Shown: positions 10,000-18,529 of the stretch, in pieces
How positions within the stretch are numbered: position 1 is the first letter of the stretch
Layout: each line of letters starts with the position of its first letter
NCBI RefSeq assembly: GCF_020520425.1
Contig: NC_079487.1
Coordinates: forward strand, 125,014,385-125,078,384
Origin: Spinacia oleracea
Taxonomy: Eukaryota; Streptophyta; Magnoliopsida; Caryophyllales; Amaranthaceae
DNA length: 64,000 nt
Reading direction: 5' to 3'
Notes under the pieces: generated by a model
Databases searched by the model: none
Seen by the model: the letters and a program-made list of their open reading frames with translations, nothing else
Told to the model about the DNA's origin: nothing
Translations under genes and position numbers: made by a program

Positions 10000-10142
10000 T
10001 CTCACTAGTGAGGCCATCCGTATCCCTCCCCCCTCTCATTTCCACTACCATCAAACCCCCCGCAACGCCGCTACCTCCCGAGGGCAAACCCTAAAACTCT
10101 CTCTCCCCCTCCCGCCGACCACCACCGTCTCCACCTCTTCTA

Positions 10143-13100
10143 ATGGCGGCGACATCAATCTCCTCTGACCCCGCCGCCGCCGAGGGTCCCGTCCTCAGCG
10201 TAATCAGCAAACGCATCCGCGCTCTCCGCAAGAAACTTAACCGTATCGCTCAAATGGAAGACTCTGTTTCTCAAGGCAAAACCCTCAACAAAGAACAACA
10301 GGACGTTCTCCGCTCTAAATCCTCCGTTGTCGCTCTCATCGATGAGTTTGAGAAGCTTCGCGCTCCTCTCTCCTCCGCCGTTGAAGAAGAACACTCCATT
10401 GCTCTCTCCTCCACACCTCCGCCTTCTTCAGCGGAGGAACAACAACCTTCATCGGAGAATAACGATGAAATTTGTAACAACGATGAAGATGTTGCTGTGA
10501 AGGATCTGCTGGATTTGATGTATTTTGGGAGCTTGTTCGATGTGAAACCTCAGAGTGACTTCACTTCATTGATGTTGACTCGTACTCATGAGCGTGGTTG
10601 CTGCTTGACTTACGATTATGTTACTGATGATGCTACTGATCTACTTGTCGAGCGCGATTTGGATTTGATTTCGGCGTTGCAAGGGCTGATGATATCTCGT
10701 CCGGTGAATTCGTCTTTGTCACATCAGAATGCGTTGGAGAGGTGCATTCACCATGCTAAGCTCTGGCTTTCCAACTCTGACCAGCCTATCGATCATCAAG
10801 CGAGTATTACATGTAATTGCCGGGTTTAATTTTCAATTTGATTCATTAATTTAATTTTATGAGAAATTGAAGTTTGATAATGTTTTTTAATTGGTCCAGA
10901 TGCTGGATTGAGGGAGAAATTGAAAAAGATTATTGCTTCCGATTACTTCACTGCTACACCGCAGATGAAGGGGCCGGGGGAGGTTGCGGCTGCAGCTGCA
11001 GTTGGGAATTTTGGGTCTTTTCAGGTTCCGATGCACGAGTCTATGGTGCCCGTTGAAGTGCCGGTGCAAATAGAGGGATCTGCTGAGCAATACCCGGATT
11101 CGGTAATTAACTAATAATATTTTTTGATTCTTTTGATGTGATATGTTCAACCAATGTGGATGATATATTGCCGAATTGAGGATATCCAGAACATGTAAAA
11201 TTAGTACACACCCCGTACTCACTAGAGCTACCAAAGGAATCAGAAAGCAAATAATGTTTTTGTTTGTGCTTGAGAGAATTCTATGATTAGAGTTAGTGTT
11301 TGATAATCTAGTGTCATAGGTTGTGTGTGTGAGTTTGATTTGATTGTGGTTATTTTATTAATCTCATCGCTGCCAAATGGGAAGAAGGTATTTTACAAAA
11401 ACATGGATATATGGGTTATTACTGTAACTTTTTTTAACACGCTAAGGGCTAGTAATAGTTAGGCCATTGTCTCAAAGAGTTTTGCAGAAAATAGATATGG
11501 CCCTTTCTTTTCAGTCCAAACGTTCCAGGCTGGTCTCCCACGACAGACATACTCAAACTTTCGCTCCAAATGAGCAATGGGTTGGTAATAACTTTCCTTA
11601 GTCCCGAATTCGATTAGCGCGTACCCTAGGAAACCATCCGTAGACCACATAAGATTGACTTTCTTCACCTTGTAGCCCATGCTTTGTAGACAATCCCTCA
11701 GCCACGCATAGCTCCGGCTAATATGTCTTCCAGCTTCGTCGTACTTGACAGGAAGATTCCTAAATACTTTGAAGTTGTTTCTGCCATGGGGTATTTTTAT
11801 TTGAGGGAGGAAGGAAAGGGAAAGGGGTTTTAGATAGGAATGTTAGGAATAGACACCAGTTCCTAAGAATTTATTTTGATTAAAAGTTTCAAAATGTGAT
11901 AAATTGTAAGAGGAGTTTTAGAAGTCCTTTTGCTACAAACGCTAAATAGTTCTAAGAGTTAGTATTTGTAATTTTAGGAGTTAGCAGAACTGATTATTCT
12001 ATAATTCTGCCTTGCTTAACCGGTGATGGTTCAAACTAACGAAATCATCAGTAGTCTTAAGAATTTAATATATTAAACGGATTATCTAATTTAACGTACA
12101 ATAGGTTGTTCGAACACATTTTATTTGCTCCGCTTGAGACAGTGCACCTCTTGGACCATACAGTAGGTCGTTTGAATACGTTTTATTTGCCCTCCGCGTG
12201 AGACAATGCACCTATTGGAGCTGATTTGACCAATGGGAAATAAGTGATGGGCATGTGAAACGATGTCATTTAATTGCATAATCAAAACACTCCAAAACCG
12301 TTGTGCCATTTCGTCTTCCCTATTTACTTGATTACTTCTCTCCGTTCAGTTTCCTTTTCCCCCTTCAAACGGCTGGTAGAGGCCAATTTAAAGGCAACTC
12401 AACAATTTTAAAGGCCTCTTTTTCTGGTGTCCATTCCTCCATAATTTCTTTGCTATAAATACCGGTGTCTATTCCTCACACTTCTATCCTATAAATACTT
12501 CTATCCTATAAATACTGGTGCCTATTCCTCTTTTCCTCTACCAACAACGTAACCCCTTTTCTTCCTCCCTCAATTCCCATCCAAATACACCATGCCATAT
12601 ATAACATCAGAATATGTTTGCCCATTCATATTAATAATCAGGAATTTTCCTGCCAAGTGCAATGTCAAGCTTCATCTTCCTGCCAAGTACAATGTCAAGT
12701 ACGATGAAGCTAGAAGATCTATTAGCCAGAGCTATGAGATTGTCTATAAAGCATGGGCTAGAAGGTGAAGAAAGTCAATCCTATGTGGTTTCCTAGGGTA
12801 TGCGCTGATCGAATCCGGGACTAAGGAAAGTGATTACCAATCCACCGCTCCAAACAGTTTGAGTATGCCTGTCATGGAAGACTAGCCTAGAATGTTTGGA
12901 CTGGAAAGAAAGGGCCATATCTATGGCTAGCCAAGCGGATGGATCTACCTCTGTTTAGGGGGCTCATGTTGATTTCATTACTATTGAGCATTCTTCATAC
13001 AATAAATCAATGAACAAAACGGGAAAGATAATTGAAGCAAAAATAGTTGAACGAATAATGAACATATAATACCCGTGTAAATAATCCATGTAACTTGGGG

Positions 13101-15456
13101 GACAGATTATTTACACGGGTATTATACGTTAGCGGACCATCCAACAACTAGTAGTGTTAAAAGTCAATTGTGTCAACTAAGAGAGAACGTAGGAAATGTT
13201 ATGATAAGTTTAGGTAGGTTAAGAAAAGATCAGAAATGAGCCACTACTAGTTCTGATAAGTTTTAGGTTTAAATAATCCAGGAAAGGAAAGTTTTTATTG
13301 GGTTAAGATTCGGGGATTTGGAAAATCCTACTGGTGTACTAGCAATCAAGGACTTATTTTCATAGTCGTAGAGGATTGTTTACACGGATATTATACGTTA
13401 GCGGGCCGTCCAACAACTAGTAGTGTTAAAAGTCAAGTTGCGTCAACTAAGAGAGAACGTAGGAAATGTTATGATAAGTTTAGGTAGGTTAAGAAAAGAT
13501 CAGAAATGAGCCACTGCCTGTTCTGATAAGTTTTTGGTTTAAATAATCCAGAAAAGGGAAGTTTTTATTGGGTTAAGATTCGGGGATTTGGAAAATCCTA
13601 TCAGTGTACTAGCAATCAAGGACTTATTTTCATAGTCGTAGAGGAGACTTGTTATTTATCTGAGTTTTGTTGGGATAACTGACATACCAGTAGTCAACTA
13701 CTAATGAAAGCCGATCATCACGTCACAAGTATGCCACAATCCTTCTGTTATTTTGTGTAATTATTTGTTCTAGCATGTAGACTGTTTTTGGCTACTAATG
13801 TAGTGAATTCTGAATGATATAAATTATGGGTAGAGATAGAGATCTACATCTTTGTTGGATAGTCATTGCCTTCTCAAGATGAATACAGTTTCTAGAAGCT
13901 GGCTGCAAATGCCAATGCCAGCTGTCAAAATATTTCTTTTGTTGAGAGGAGACTATGTAGATTGTACTGGTGCTGATAATTGTGAGATAGGTGAAATATT
14001 TCTTTTGAAGCAAGTATTGTCTCGGAGCAGGAAAACTAAACACGGCTAGTTTGGTATTGGTTCCTTGGTCTTTTAACCTTATGATCAGCATTGTTGTTAT
14101 TGCTAGTTGTCCCTGAGTAGTTAACTAGTGGTTAGTCTTGATTTTTGCCTTCTGGAATTAGGCATATTAGCCGTATTAGGGGACTGCTTTATAGACAGAT
14201 AGGAAATGCCTGTCAGTAAGGGTAAGCTAGGAGCAGGAAAACTAAGCACGGCTAGTTTGGTATTGGTTCCTTGGCCTTTTAATCTTATGATCAGCATGGT
14301 TGACATTGCTAGTTGTCCTTGAGTAGTTAACTAATGGTTAGTCTTACCTTGTGGAATCAGGCATACGAGCCATATTTGGGGACTACTTTATAGGCATAGG
14401 TAGGAAATGTCTTTCATGTTCAGCTAACAGGATTACTGGTAAAAAGATGTTTCTTCCGTTATTTCCTTTTTTGGGGTGAAGGTTTGGGGGTTGATATGCT
14501 TGGGGGTAAAGGATTCAGGGTACCAGTAGAAGTGAGGTTGCTTGCATTATGTATTTTTATTCCTGACTAGCTGCATTTGTGTTCTAGATTGTACCTAAAA
14601 ATTTATCAGGACTTGCTTTTTTTAATCAAGAGTTTCAGGGTATTGGCACATCTATGTTGGGTTTGGGGATGTTTAAGCAGGTGTATGACTTGATATTTCA
14701 GTTTCAGTACCACTAGTTTGTTTCACATATGTGGTTAATGTTGGAGCACTCCTTGTGTCTCCCAAAAAAAATCTGACGTTAGTAGCCTGGCATTTATTTT
14801 GGAAAAGGGGGGTGGGGAAGCGAAAGGCAGATGAGGTTATGTTGACAGAAATGTTATACGCACAAGCTTTTCATATTTAGCTTTTCTGACCTTTTTCTGT
14901 TGAACAATCACAGGAGGAGAATTTGGCTAATTATGAAGGATATGAAACAGGGGAACAACAAATTGGTGGTGCCGAGGAATTTCAAAAGGTATATTTTTTT
15001 GGCTTAGCAAGTCCTAGTTGTTTCTGTTTCACTGTATTCAGAGGATATAATATTTGGTTTTTTGGTTTTTAGGATGACTTAGAAGGAGAAAATCCCCCAG
15101 AAGCAGTCTCAGCTCAAACAGAACAAGAACAATTACAGGCTGAAGAAGAGCATGGCTATAGAAATGCAGACTTCAAGGAGCAGCAGTACTTTCCTAGACG
15201 AGGTTCAAGAGGTGGCCGTGGTGGTGGTCGTAGAGGTTACCCTAATGGCCGAGGAGGCAGGGGTACTGGTAGGGGAGGTGGACCTTACCAGAATGGGCGC
15301 GGTCAGTATTACGACAATTACATCCCTAGAAACTACTACGCTAAAAGAGGTGGCAGGGGAGGAGGAGCTGGTGGTAATGGTGGGAACACGTACCACAACT
15401 CTCCATCTGCAGCCGAAGGCAACCACACTCAAGCAAATATGGGGGTTGCATCGTAA
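10143..15456 (+). CDS. Caprin-like coiled-coil RGG-box protein
   Basis: Four exons, 10143-10812, 10900-11102, 14914-14988 and 15073-15456, with GT-AG joins and consistent phase, give about 443 residues. Residues about 17-75 (VLSVISKRIRALRKKLNRI... GKTLNKEQQDVL) strongly resemble the caprin-1 dimerisation/coiled-coil segment, including the motif G-K/E-x-LN-x-[DE]Q. A central acidic/Ser part, an Ala-rich stretch and a Val/Pro stretch (PMHESMVPVEVPVQIEG) follow. The C-terminus (about 359-415) is an arginine-glycine domain (RRGSRGGRGGGRRG...) with Tyr/Asn. Animal caprin-1 is a cytoplasmic RNA-binding stress-granule protein; an RNA-binding or condensate role here is inference from that family and the RGG domain. 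The ATG is the first in the CT-rich leader and begins MAATSISS. Intron 2 is 3.8 kb, much longer than the others (87 and 84 bp), because it holds duplications and gene-fragment repeats. Confidence 0.8.
11459..11840 (-). pseudogene. XS-domain gene fragment, inverted arm 1
   Basis: On the minus strand, within intron 2 of the caprin-like gene. An open frame (start about 11790, stop near 11459) contains MGYKVKKVNLMWSTDGFLGY, then ALIEFG, HLERKFEYVCRGRPAW and TEKKGPYL. The spacing G-[FY]-x-V-x-K-V ... G-x-x-G-x-A-x-[IV]-E-F ... E-[KR]-x-F-E ... G resembles the XS domain of SGS3/FDM-type RNA-silencing proteins. A pyrimidine-rich, UTR-like stretch and an ATG (near 11785) precede it. Only this fragment is present. 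It pairs with the inverted copy at 12540-12935. The family assignment is by eye. Confidence 0.5.
12540..12935 (+). pseudogene. XS-domain gene fragment, inverted arm 2
   Basis: Plus-strand copy of the 11459-11840 fragment, facing it. Shared blocks include AAGTACGATGAAGCTAGAAG, AGCATGGGCTAGAAGGTGAA, GTTTCCTAGGGTATGCGCTG and GGACTAAGGAAAGTGATTAC, plus the upstream CCTTTTCTTCCTCCCTCAAT leader-like stretch. Compared with arm 1 it has several small deletions and stops, so it does not encode the domain. Together the arms can fold into a hairpin of roughly 300 bp with a loop of about 700 nt in the host pre-mRNA. Confidence 0.6.
13061..13130. repeat. 26-bp foldback hairpin
   Basis: AACATATAATACCCGTGTAA plus ATAATC (13061-13086) is mirrored at 13105-13130 (GATTATTTACACGGGTATTA plus TACGTT) with a single mismatch and an 18-nt loop. 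The right arm is the start of the duplicated unit 13105-13373. Confidence 0.75.
13105..13643 (+). repeat. Two-copy tandem duplication, 269-bp unit
   Basis: 13105-13373 and 13374-13643 are near-identical head-to-tail copies with only scattered substitutions and small length changes, inside intron 2 of the caprin-like gene. No coding sequence. Confidence 0.88.
14025..14425 (+). repeat. Two-copy tandem duplication, about 206-bp unit
   Basis: GAGCAGGAAAACTAAACACGG at 14025 recurs at 14231 and the similarity continues for about 190 bp with more divergence than the 269-bp pair. Same intron, non-coding. Confidence 0.8.
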
Positions 15457-15783
15457 CATGAGCAAAATGGAATGTATTTTGGTTAGTGGCTCGTTGTTGG
15501 TGGGTTCTGGTGATGTTTTTGCTGTGCAATAGGCGTAGTAGCATTACTGCATTTGTAGGTCTATTTATGAATTCACCAAAAGTTCTGTGAATGGGTTGGT
15601 TTTTCACTAAACCTTCTAATATAGCCTTTATTTGCTGGTTGATAATATATCTTGTGCATTTTGTTAAAACTAAAAACTTGCATTCTGAATTTGACAATCA
15701 AAAGAATTGGCGTGCTTCCTAAGTTTACTATTGCGGAGTTAAAGAAAGAATATTGAAATTCCAATCATCTACGACTCTATGCA

Positions 15784-16020
15784 GTACTTCCTCCGTTTCT
15801 TAATAGATGCATCGCTTTGACTTAGAAGTGGATGTTATATTTACGTTGTACCAAGTTGCATGTTTTTAGTTCAAGCACGCGGTTAACTTGTTCACGTCTT
15901 TTGTCCTTTTGTGCCTTGCACCCAAAACAAATACTACATGGAATAGATTCTTCAGATGAGATTTAAAATTATAATAGTAGCATGTGTCAATATTAAACTT
16001 TATTTACGATTCTAATATGG
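15784..16020. mobile_element. Possible truncated Stowaway MITE
   Basis: TACTTCCTCCGTTTCTTAAT at 15784 looks like a Stowaway left end, but no matching right end is visible. The rest of 15457-16557 is 3' UTR and spacer. Confidence 0.35.
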
Positions 16021-16557
16021 CTTATTATCCATGATTTGAGTAAACAAATTTCTAAGCTTCAAAGTGGATTCTAAGTAAACAAGAGTGGGTTGGCCTTTTA
16101 AAGTTTTTCAAAGATGCCTCAACTGAATTTTTTTTTTCTTCAAGGGCATCATTTGATAGAGTATGCTATAAGCTTATGACTTATGTGCACTTAACAATTC
16201 TTTTTGTTTTAATTTCTCGGTATTACCCTACTCAATTACTCATAACATCAGTAGAATTTTCTGAGTTTTCCCGGTCAGAAGACCCTATTTCATGACTAAC
16301 AGCAAGGTTATATTCTTTCCAGTGATTGATTTCATTCAGAAGTAAGTACATATATTCCAAACCAACATTTCAACTCTCTTTCATCTTAAACTATTATATA
16401 TGTCAACTTCAGAAATGAAAGCATCTGATACCAGGTTGCAGAAGGGGAATCTACAATGATCATAATCAAATTTACCTATTATATAAGTTCCTTCTTTAAG
16501 CTGATAATTCAGCAAGCAATACAGACTTCCAAACTTAGCTTCCATCTGCTTCTTGAA

Positions 16558-17108
16558 ATGGGAATCCGTCTTTCTCGTGGCATTCCACCAGCAGTCATCG
16601 AAATTCATTCGACAGATCAATGGAACTCTCATTTAGAATCCTCAAAACATTCTGCCAAACTCGTAAGTTATGCTTACTATAATCCTTTGATTTTGTAGCT
16701 GCTTCATTATATGCTCTAGTTTTTCTTAAATTTTGAGCAAAGTTTCTGTTCTTTTTGGAAAACGATAGATGGTGGTCGACTTCTCAGCTTCATGGTGTGG
16801 ACCATGTCAATACATGGAGCCGATTGTCAAAGATTTCTCGACAAAGTATAGAGATATCGAATTTGTGAAAATCGATGTGGATGAGCTTGCGGTATTACTA
16901 CACATTCCTAAACAATGTTCTTTCTTCTGAATTGCTAAAGAGTTTTTATATTCATACAACCCCTAATTTGTTGCAGGATGTTGCTAGTGAATTCGGGGTT
17001 GATGCGATGCCAACCTTCGTGTTTTTTAGGAAGGGGAAAGAAGTTGACAGGCTTATTGGTGCTAATAAGGGTGAACTTAGGGAGAGAATCACAAAACACA
17101 GAGTTTAA
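16558..17108 (+). CDS. Thioredoxin h (subgroup II-like)
   Basis: Cytosolic/membrane-associated disulfide reductase. Exons 16558-16662, 16769-16891 and 16977-17108 give 119 residues. The active site WCGPC lies in VVDFSASWCGPCQYMEP; KIDVDEL and the cis-proline motif MPTF follow, with the usual Trx C-terminal helix (ELRERITKHRV). Length is normal for Trx h. The start was chosen at MGIRLSRG because Gly2 and Ser6 fit an N-myristoylation motif known in this subgroup; the frame is open upstream, so a longer N-terminus or a 5' exon is possible. Introns fall after ...HSAKL and ...VDELA, the same places as in the paralogs at 33350 and 38145. It is the least extended and most canonical of the three copies. 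Confidence 0.88.
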
Positions 17109-17893
17109 GTCCTTTCAATTCCGAGGTTCCAAAAGGTCTTTTTAAAGTTACAAGTTCTGTAAACTTTGTGTAAACCTTATTTAACTGATCACACTATTGT
17201 ATTGTGTACCCTTAAATTCCAGAAATGAAATCACTGGCACAACTGCATGAGTCTTCTGCAGGGAAGTTTTTCTTTTTTTCTTTCTCAAGTTATAAATTCT
17301 AGTTGATTTCGGTTTAAACAGAATTACTGAATGCTTAGTTGTTAATTGAACTCTGGCTTGCTGTTTTTGAAGTTGTCATTGATATACGGATATACCTAGT
17401 CCAGAAGCTAAATCAATGGAAAATCATAATCTCCAATCAGGTTTCTTTCGTTTGGCCACTTTGGTGAAAGCCTGAAAGGGGATCTAATGTATGACAAAAT
17501 TTATAATATACTTATCCAGAATTGTTAATCACATGTACCTGAGTTATTTTTGGATGTCTGGACAAATTTGTAGGATTTCCAAGTATAGTAAGAGTTTATG
17601 ATTAGATTTCCTAATGTGGTACATGATGGGAAATTAAAGAAATGCTTTGCCTAATCGGATTCACCATCAAATTAACTAGTCCAATTGTATGGCGATGGGA
17701 TTGTTTGTCCTAAGCTTTTTCTCAGGAGAAACCGTCTTTCTCGTGGCATATGAATTACTTCATTTGCTTAATAATCTTAAACTACGACTCTATGTACAAG
17801 TATGCTACTGTCAGTCGAACTGTTTGTTTGTCCTTAAGCACAAAAGTATGTTCACTCCTGTGATTTTAAAAAAAAAGGGAATCTAAAAAAAGA
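17109..17893. other. 3' UTR and spacer, nothing else seen
   Basis: Downstream of the thioredoxin gene; AT-rich, with no coding or repeat signal supported. A 65-codon frame at 17689-17886 is not convincing. Confidence 0.5.
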
Positions 17894-17966
17894 TGGAGAT
17901 GCGGGGGATCGAACCCCGTGCCTCTCGCATGCAAAGCGAGCGCTCTACCATTTGAGCTACATCCCC
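17894..17966 (-). tRNA. tRNA-Ala (UGC)
   Basis: On the minus strand: acceptor GGGGATG pairing with CATCTCC (including a G-U-type pair), D arm GCTC...GAGC, anticodon stem CTCGC/GCGAG around TTTGCAT (anticodon TGC), T arm CGGGG-TTCGATC-CCCCG, discriminator A. 73 nt, no intron. A and B box promoters are intact and a run of seven T follows a few bases downstream as a Pol III terminator. Confidence 0.95.
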
Positions 17967-18529
17967 TTTTTGGTTAAAATTTGCGTTAGATATCAAAAAA
18001 ATAATAAAATGTAATCTGAACAAACCTGTGACAAATAACTGGAAATGATTATTCGAATCACAGTGCCTAGCCTAATGCCTTAATATAACCTAACTAAACA
18101 TCTTTATTTTGCCGTTAATATATATGGGCCAACTACAAATTATAGAATCCAAGTAGCATATCAAAACGGACAAGAATCATCTCCAAGATAATCAACCAAA
18201 AAATACAATCACATTTCGCCAAATATAATTCATCAAGCAAACCAATGATGGACCGCAATAATAATCAACAAGGAAGAATTAACTGTACTCATCACACGAG
18301 AATTATACGTGAAAAACTAATTCATTGTGAAGAGTAAAAACTATGGGACTTAAGCCCACCATTTGTTCTTCTTTTGCTGGATAAAATTTAGGCTGAAATG
18401 AACCCAAATCAAGTTCACAAAGATCACAATACACCAAATAGGCAAATTTTCTATAAATTTGGTAGAATAAAAAAATGGATTTGGAAAACCCAATAAAGGG
18501 AGGACATTAAGATCCACTTACAAGCTCAA
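17967..18529. other. Spacer, no feature supported
   Basis: AT-rich sequence between the first tRNA gene and the copia-type fossil; no open frame or repeat I can support. Confidence 0.5.

Follow-up and report, generated by a model that had tools for sequence, protein, structure and literature searches.

The window, the whole 64,000-nucleotide stretch of Spinacia oleracea DNA analysed here, contains a plus-strand gene in whose second intron two copies of part of an XS-domain gene lie in inverted orientation. The features are as follows, with coordinates counted from the first base of the window.

10143..15456, plus strand: host gene, 443 amino acids, four exons with GT-AG introns, based on a splice model
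11103..14913, plus strand: second intron of the host gene (3,811 bases), containing the inverted copies and two tandem duplications
11491..11860, minus strand: arm 1, a truncated XS gene copy with a 5' untranslated-like part and most of the XS domain
11861..12460, no strand: spacer (hairpin loop) separating the 5' ends of the copies; includes a short stretch duplicated in tandem (12097-12219)
12454..12514 (61 bases), plus strand: three TATAAATA boxes upstream of the former ATG of arm 2 (12592)
12461..12924, plus strand: arm 2, a second XS gene copy with several frame breaks; compared with arm 1 it has a short internal duplication and three deletions
12925..13060 (end approximate), plus strand: decayed C-terminal coding remainder of arm 2, based on translations and DNA similarity

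In the splice model, the host exons (10143-10812, 10900-11102, 14914-14988 and 15073-15456) join, with GT-AG introns between them, to encode a 443-residue protein with a glycine/arginine-rich C-terminus; intron 2 in this model extends from 11103 to 14913. An initial annotation of this DNA had labelled the protein caprin-like; as Pfam gives no match to the protein at E 0.1, that label is unverified. A genome search with the first 316 residues found no second copy of the gene and returned only its own three exons. Downstream, at about 16550-17110, exons read by eye like a thioredoxin-type protein, and we take a WCGPC motif there as a sign of this type.

The initial annotation had described two copies of one fragment facing each other in the 3.8-kb intron, composed of untranslated-like and coding sequence. 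We confirm the make-up and the inverted order of the copies, which are imperfect, with arm 1 on the minus and arm 2 on the plus strand. The edges given for them need correction: the outer positions, 11459 and 12935, lie a little outside the shared sequence, whose outer edge is at 11491 and 12924, and on the inner side the similarity reaches 11860 and 12461, further than stated. The main similarity consists of ungapped inverted pieces of 69, 65, 59 and 44 nt with 89-90% complementarity (11491-11750 versus 12693-12924), and two shorter pieces, one of 20 nt at 95% (11801-11820/12554-12573) and one of 28 nt at 86% (11833-11860/12461-12488), extend it into the 5' untranslated-like part. Aligned with gaps, the main stretch is 79% identical over 261 columns, and two genome searches gave the arm-to-arm match E-values of 1.7e-60 and 8.6e-60, far beyond chance. 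The gene copies are thus arranged head to head, ~600 bases apart. In the alignment, 22 bases are missing close to the start of arm 1, and arm 2 has three gaps of ~7 to 11 bases as well as 42 additional bases, which include the short internal duplication. The remainder at 12925-13060 is absent from arm 1 and by eye resembles the C-terminal part of other XS-only proteins; the DNA similarity of arm 2 to two loci elsewhere in the genome (L043 and L044) extends to about 12985-12987. The TATAAATA boxes upstream of arm 2 could possibly be a promoter relic, although with 14 such boxes in the window versus 11.5 expected only their clustering near arm 2 is suggestive.

Intron 2 holds two further two-copy duplications, one in which 13105-13375 is repeated as 13374-13645 (272 bp, 94%) and one in which 14021-14215 is repeated as 14227-14416 (~197 bp, 85%), suggesting that local duplication is a habit of this intron. 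A 26-nt inverted pair lies beside them at 13061-13130.

The assignment of the fragment to the XS domain, made at first from the reading of the letters, holds for arm 1, whose peptide matches Pfam XS (PF03468) with 42.2 bits against a curated cut-off of 25; XS is the sole Pfam match of this 108-residue peptide. In a scan of the genome with the same profile, the match lies on the minus strand at 11501-11767 (41 bits, E 1.5e-7). In arm 1 the match spans positions 11-98 of the 113-position profile, and the C-terminal end of the domain is lost. The 53 XS matches of the genome scan do not include arm 2, whose open piece at 12592-12768 has no Pfam match; arm 2 is assigned to XS by its DNA similarity to arm 1 and by tblastn. 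Elsewhere in that scan, XS matches form sets of identical score (C4:100681467, C4:100728898 and C90:11341; also C3:60576711 and C3:112701343), which suggests that a stretch was duplicated recently or has unplaced copies.

Both arms are frame-broken, arm 2 at several places. The XS frame of arm 1 is open for 127 codons from stop to stop (11459-11842), and this opening together with the 42-bit XS match would fit a reading in which arm 1 is a living small minus-strand gene within the intron and arm 2 its dead copy. We regard this as exceedingly improbable: the ATG of arm 1 is out of frame with its XS frame, the 22 bases missing relative to arm 2 lie near its start, the C-terminal part of the domain is gone and, as detailed below, the differences between the arms show no excess at third codon positions.

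The initial annotation had supposed a parent XS gene in the RNA-silencing machinery. The SGS3/FDM/IDN2 group comprises XS-domain proteins that combine this domain with a zinc finger-XS part, a coiled coil and an XH part. We searched the 894-Mb assembly for a parent at the DNA and protein levels; the searches scored the best candidates and skipped very common words, and absence is bounded by that. With arm 1 as DNA query, three matches were obtained: arm 1 itself, arm 2 (79%) and C4:100099172 (67%); querying with the larger region also gave C5:18292371 (71% over about 200 bases). The C4:100099172 frame carries one stop and the C5:18292371 fragment several, and the inverted repeat as such is single copy in the genome. 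The protein search with arm 1 gave 49 matches, of which the best by E-value after arm 1 itself were C4:100099161 (47%, one TAG), C4:90395759 (44%) and C4:105050843 (46%). The last two are open XS-only frames and, at 44-46% protein identity, the nearest open relatives. Arm 2 appeared lower, in two pieces (54% and 56%) interrupted by stops; a dispersed repeat contributed numerous copies at about 30-41%, below the C4 relatives, and two long XS proteins were returned at 31-32%. Within the reach of these searches, a close parent XS gene in the assembly is therefore rejected, the DNA relatives (67-71%) having stops and the open relatives being only 44-46% identical in protein, and the expected intact parent was found neither by DNA nor by protein search.

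We also built a tree from 12 chosen rows, namely arm 1, L044-L046, four dispersed-repeat members and four long XS proteins of this genome, which we take to be SGS3/FDM-like. In it, arm 1 falls together with L044-L046, small XS-only frames (C4 proteins; support 96/93), of which L045 and L046 are open for 184 and 197 residues from stop to stop. The four dispersed-repeat rows (95/94) and the four long XS proteins (100/100) stand apart; within these 12 rows, arm 1 falls outside the group formed by the genome's long XS proteins. Based on the tree and the search identities, the arms derive from a small XS-only gene rather than from a gene for a long XS protein. Thus, while the XS domain PF03468 is common to arm 1 and the SGS3/FDM/IDN2 group, a parent within the silencing machinery is not borne out, the nearest relatives being XS-only genes (44-47%).

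The same searches bear on an origin from a mobile element. Because a dispersed repeat with an XS-only open frame exists in this genome, the arms might be the remains of an XS-gene-carrying transposable element that inserted into the intron. On the other hand, region 11001-13700 has no blastn match to 20 fetched repeat loci at E 1e-5 or E 1e-3, a blastn comparison of the whole window with these loci gave no match of more than 150 bases in the intron, and the similarity to the repeat is found only at the protein level. Moreover, arm 1 falls outside the four sampled repeat members in the tree, and the inverted repeat has no second copy in the genome. We consider a transposable element highly improbable as the source, and derivation of the arms from this dispersed XS-carrying repeat in particular is rejected, given the missing blastn match and the separation in the tree.

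Next, we compared the arms with each other and with their relatives by codon position (positions 1/2/3; arm 1 XS frame), as raw counts. Between arm 1 and arm 2, differences are even (8/80, 11/81 and 10/81). Against L011, a dispersed-repeat XS frame, the counts are 37/89, 39/88 and 56/89 for arm 1 and 31/79, 32/79 and 53/80 for arm 2; against L044, they are 23/87, 28/87 and 38/87 for arm 1 and 26/80, 24/81 and 35/81 for arm 2. Against L043, which is itself broken, the third-position excess is slight (30/80, 31/80 and 35/81 for arm 1; 26/71, 29/71 and 30/72 for arm 2). These counts point to constraint on the coding sequence along the older branches but not between the arms. Because the third-position excess on the longer branches is missing between the arms, the gene seems to have been duplicated when its function was lost or afterwards, and coding constraint since the duplication is rejected on present evidence.

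To ask the corresponding question about base pairing, we examined six ungapped blocks comprising 285 sites, of which 255 form Watson-Crick pairs, 11 G-U pairs, 14 A-C mispairs and 5 other mispairs. Among the 25 transition-type mispairs, G-U is thus not favoured over A-C (11 versus 14, p 0.69), and selection for pairing in the host-sense transcript is likewise rejected on present evidence. Both tests rest on 25-29 differences and have little power.

In five of these six ungapped blocks, we counted 22 transitions (6 in CG context) and 4 transversions, giving a K2P distance of 0.111 over 257 sites, a value that understates the total divergence because the blocks are the best-conserved pieces. At a rate of ~7e-9 per site per year, this distance would correspond to about 8 million years. 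The CpG observed/expected ratio is 0.66 in arm 1, 0.42 in 12461-13060 and 0.50 in the whole of intron 2. We considered CpG content and the transition excess as a sign of methylation and found them of no use for this: of the two tandem repeats of intron 2, which served as controls, one has the same excess (transitions to transversions 12 to 2 in one repeat, 8 to 10 in the other).

The initial annotation had further proposed that a transcript of the intron could fold into a long hairpin and give rise to siRNAs against the parent gene, in effect a self-silencing loop. The first part is right. The predicted fold of the plus strand at 11441-12960 has an energy of -609 kcal/mol versus -369 (sd 9) for 40 shuffles (z about -26) and includes 301 arm-to-arm pairs and, with G-U pairs counted, one uninterrupted helix of 35 bp. 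This fold is strong because the sequence is an inverted repeat and says nothing on use. When arm 1 was cut into 21-mers, 201/350 matched arm 2 with 1-4 mismatches, 45 of them with one and none exactly. With so strong a fold and so many matching 21-mers, a transcript could physically be diced. Imperfect pairing by itself does not exclude this, as hairpin transgenes with mismatches are reported to retain silencing activity in plants (PMC9263138).

As for targets, the 21-mer comparison took in the fetched XS loci except L036 and L037, which are the arms themselves. The best arm-1 21-mers have 1 mismatch to L044/L038, one and the same place that carries a stop. Two overlapping arm-2 21-mers have 2 mismatches to the open frame L045, the best among four further loci. 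An arm-1 21-mer with 2 mismatches to L024 was set aside as chance; it lies on the strand opposite to the L024 XS frame. Searched through the genome at <=3 mismatches, one 26-mer from the best-paired stem matched only the two arms and C4:100099172 (L044; 2 mismatches). In region 10000-18000, Rfam at gathering scores gave no microRNA family match, only a tRNA; this tRNA gene lies at 17894-17966 on the minus strand (67.5 bits).

Together, the predicted pairing, the long helix and the few-mismatch windows in L044 and L045 are compatible with a young hairpin or proto-microRNA locus, in which the intron hairpin would be diced into siRNAs acting on their own locus or, in trans, on distant XS-only genes, and inverted pseudogene duplication has been reported to give rise to microRNA genes in plants (PMC3237417). 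We judge this unlikely. The genome searches gave no close target gene, nothing points to a bias towards keeping pairs, and the Rfam search of 10000-18000 gave no microRNA match. The few-mismatch windows fall within conserved parts of the domain and are explained by shared ancestry. The transition excess between the arms (22 to 4), a possible trace of methylation, recurs in one of the two tandem repeats, and 6/22 of the transitions between the arms are in CG context. The narrower version, that the hairpin is transcribed with the host gene, diced, and its small RNAs act on XS-only genes such as the open L045, is very unlikely, and the self-silencing loop on a parent gene found no support. Were the narrower version true, the locus would be an intron-borne proto-microRNA derived from a relative of silencing proteins, and if small RNAs were found, the origin of a hairpin RNA would be tied to a relative of the silencing machinery.

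We conclude that a dying XS-only gene was very probably duplicated here long ago, locally and in inverted orientation, and that the copies now drift as non-coding sequence in the host intron; this reading is favoured because the arms closely match only each other genome-wide and both frames are broken. Specifically, a small XS-only gene from a clade distinct from the long XS proteins would have resided in host intron 2 and been duplicated locally within it, inverted and head to head. The reading frames of both copies would have been lost, with the copies drifting since as non-coding sequence of the intron; the capacity to form a hairpin would be a by-product of the inverted duplication and probably not kept by selection. 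The order of events, with local duplication of a resident gene, its age and the absence of function are what we infer from the sequence. Counted against decay are the strong fold, the 21-mer matches, the windows with 2 mismatches to L045, the slight third-position excess against L043 and the 127-codon opening of arm 1.

Known systems help to place this decaying duplication. GmIRCHS, at the soybean I locus, is an inverted repeat of a chalcone synthase pseudogene reported to be linked to CHS gene silencing and a seed-coat phenotype (PMC13051633; PMC3804491). In both cases, a pseudogene fragment from a gene family forms an inverted repeat and a read-through transcript could be double-stranded. 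GmIRCHS is tied to CHS gene silencing, whereas for the intronic XS repeat the genome searches gave no closely matching target gene, and the relatives at 67-71% DNA identity both have stops. Pseudogene-related plant microRNA genes have been ascribed to inverted duplication (PMC3237417); there too an inverted coding duplication yields a long hairpin, but the XS hairpin lacks an Rfam microRNA match and a convincing target. The SGS3/FDM/IDN2 proteins have the domain in common with arm 1, but the arms come from a small XS-only gene, and arm 1 is 31-32% identical to two long proteins. Among the titles listed by our searches of the XS-domain literature, none describes this locus. Inverted gene duplications provide the starting material for hairpin RNAs and microRNAs in plants, and the locus is a clear intronic example that mainly shows how such structures decay.

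The dispersed repeat, which is about 5 kb long and lies outside the window on contigs C1-C6 (L009-L028), was sampled at the 20 fetched loci and has an XS-only open frame of about 161 codons. An intact XS frame passed our filter in 11/20 loci, and 10/20 have a common 3' terminal sequence. A 211-base probe ending at the 3' terminus had at least 40 matches in the genome, the best 40 of 157 candidates. Neither the 20 loci nor four pieces of upstream sequence contained a terminal inverted repeat, and four joined loci showed short matches only and no convincing target-site duplication. The four repeat copies to which upstream sequence was added resemble each other in stretches spread over about 5 kb. 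For the 11 intact frames, differences at codon positions 1/2/3 number 559, 534 and 591, and the median dN/dS is 0.56 over 55 pairs, a value biased by the choice of intact frames. If this repeat is a mobile element, one carrying a relative of silencing proteins would deserve a study of its own.
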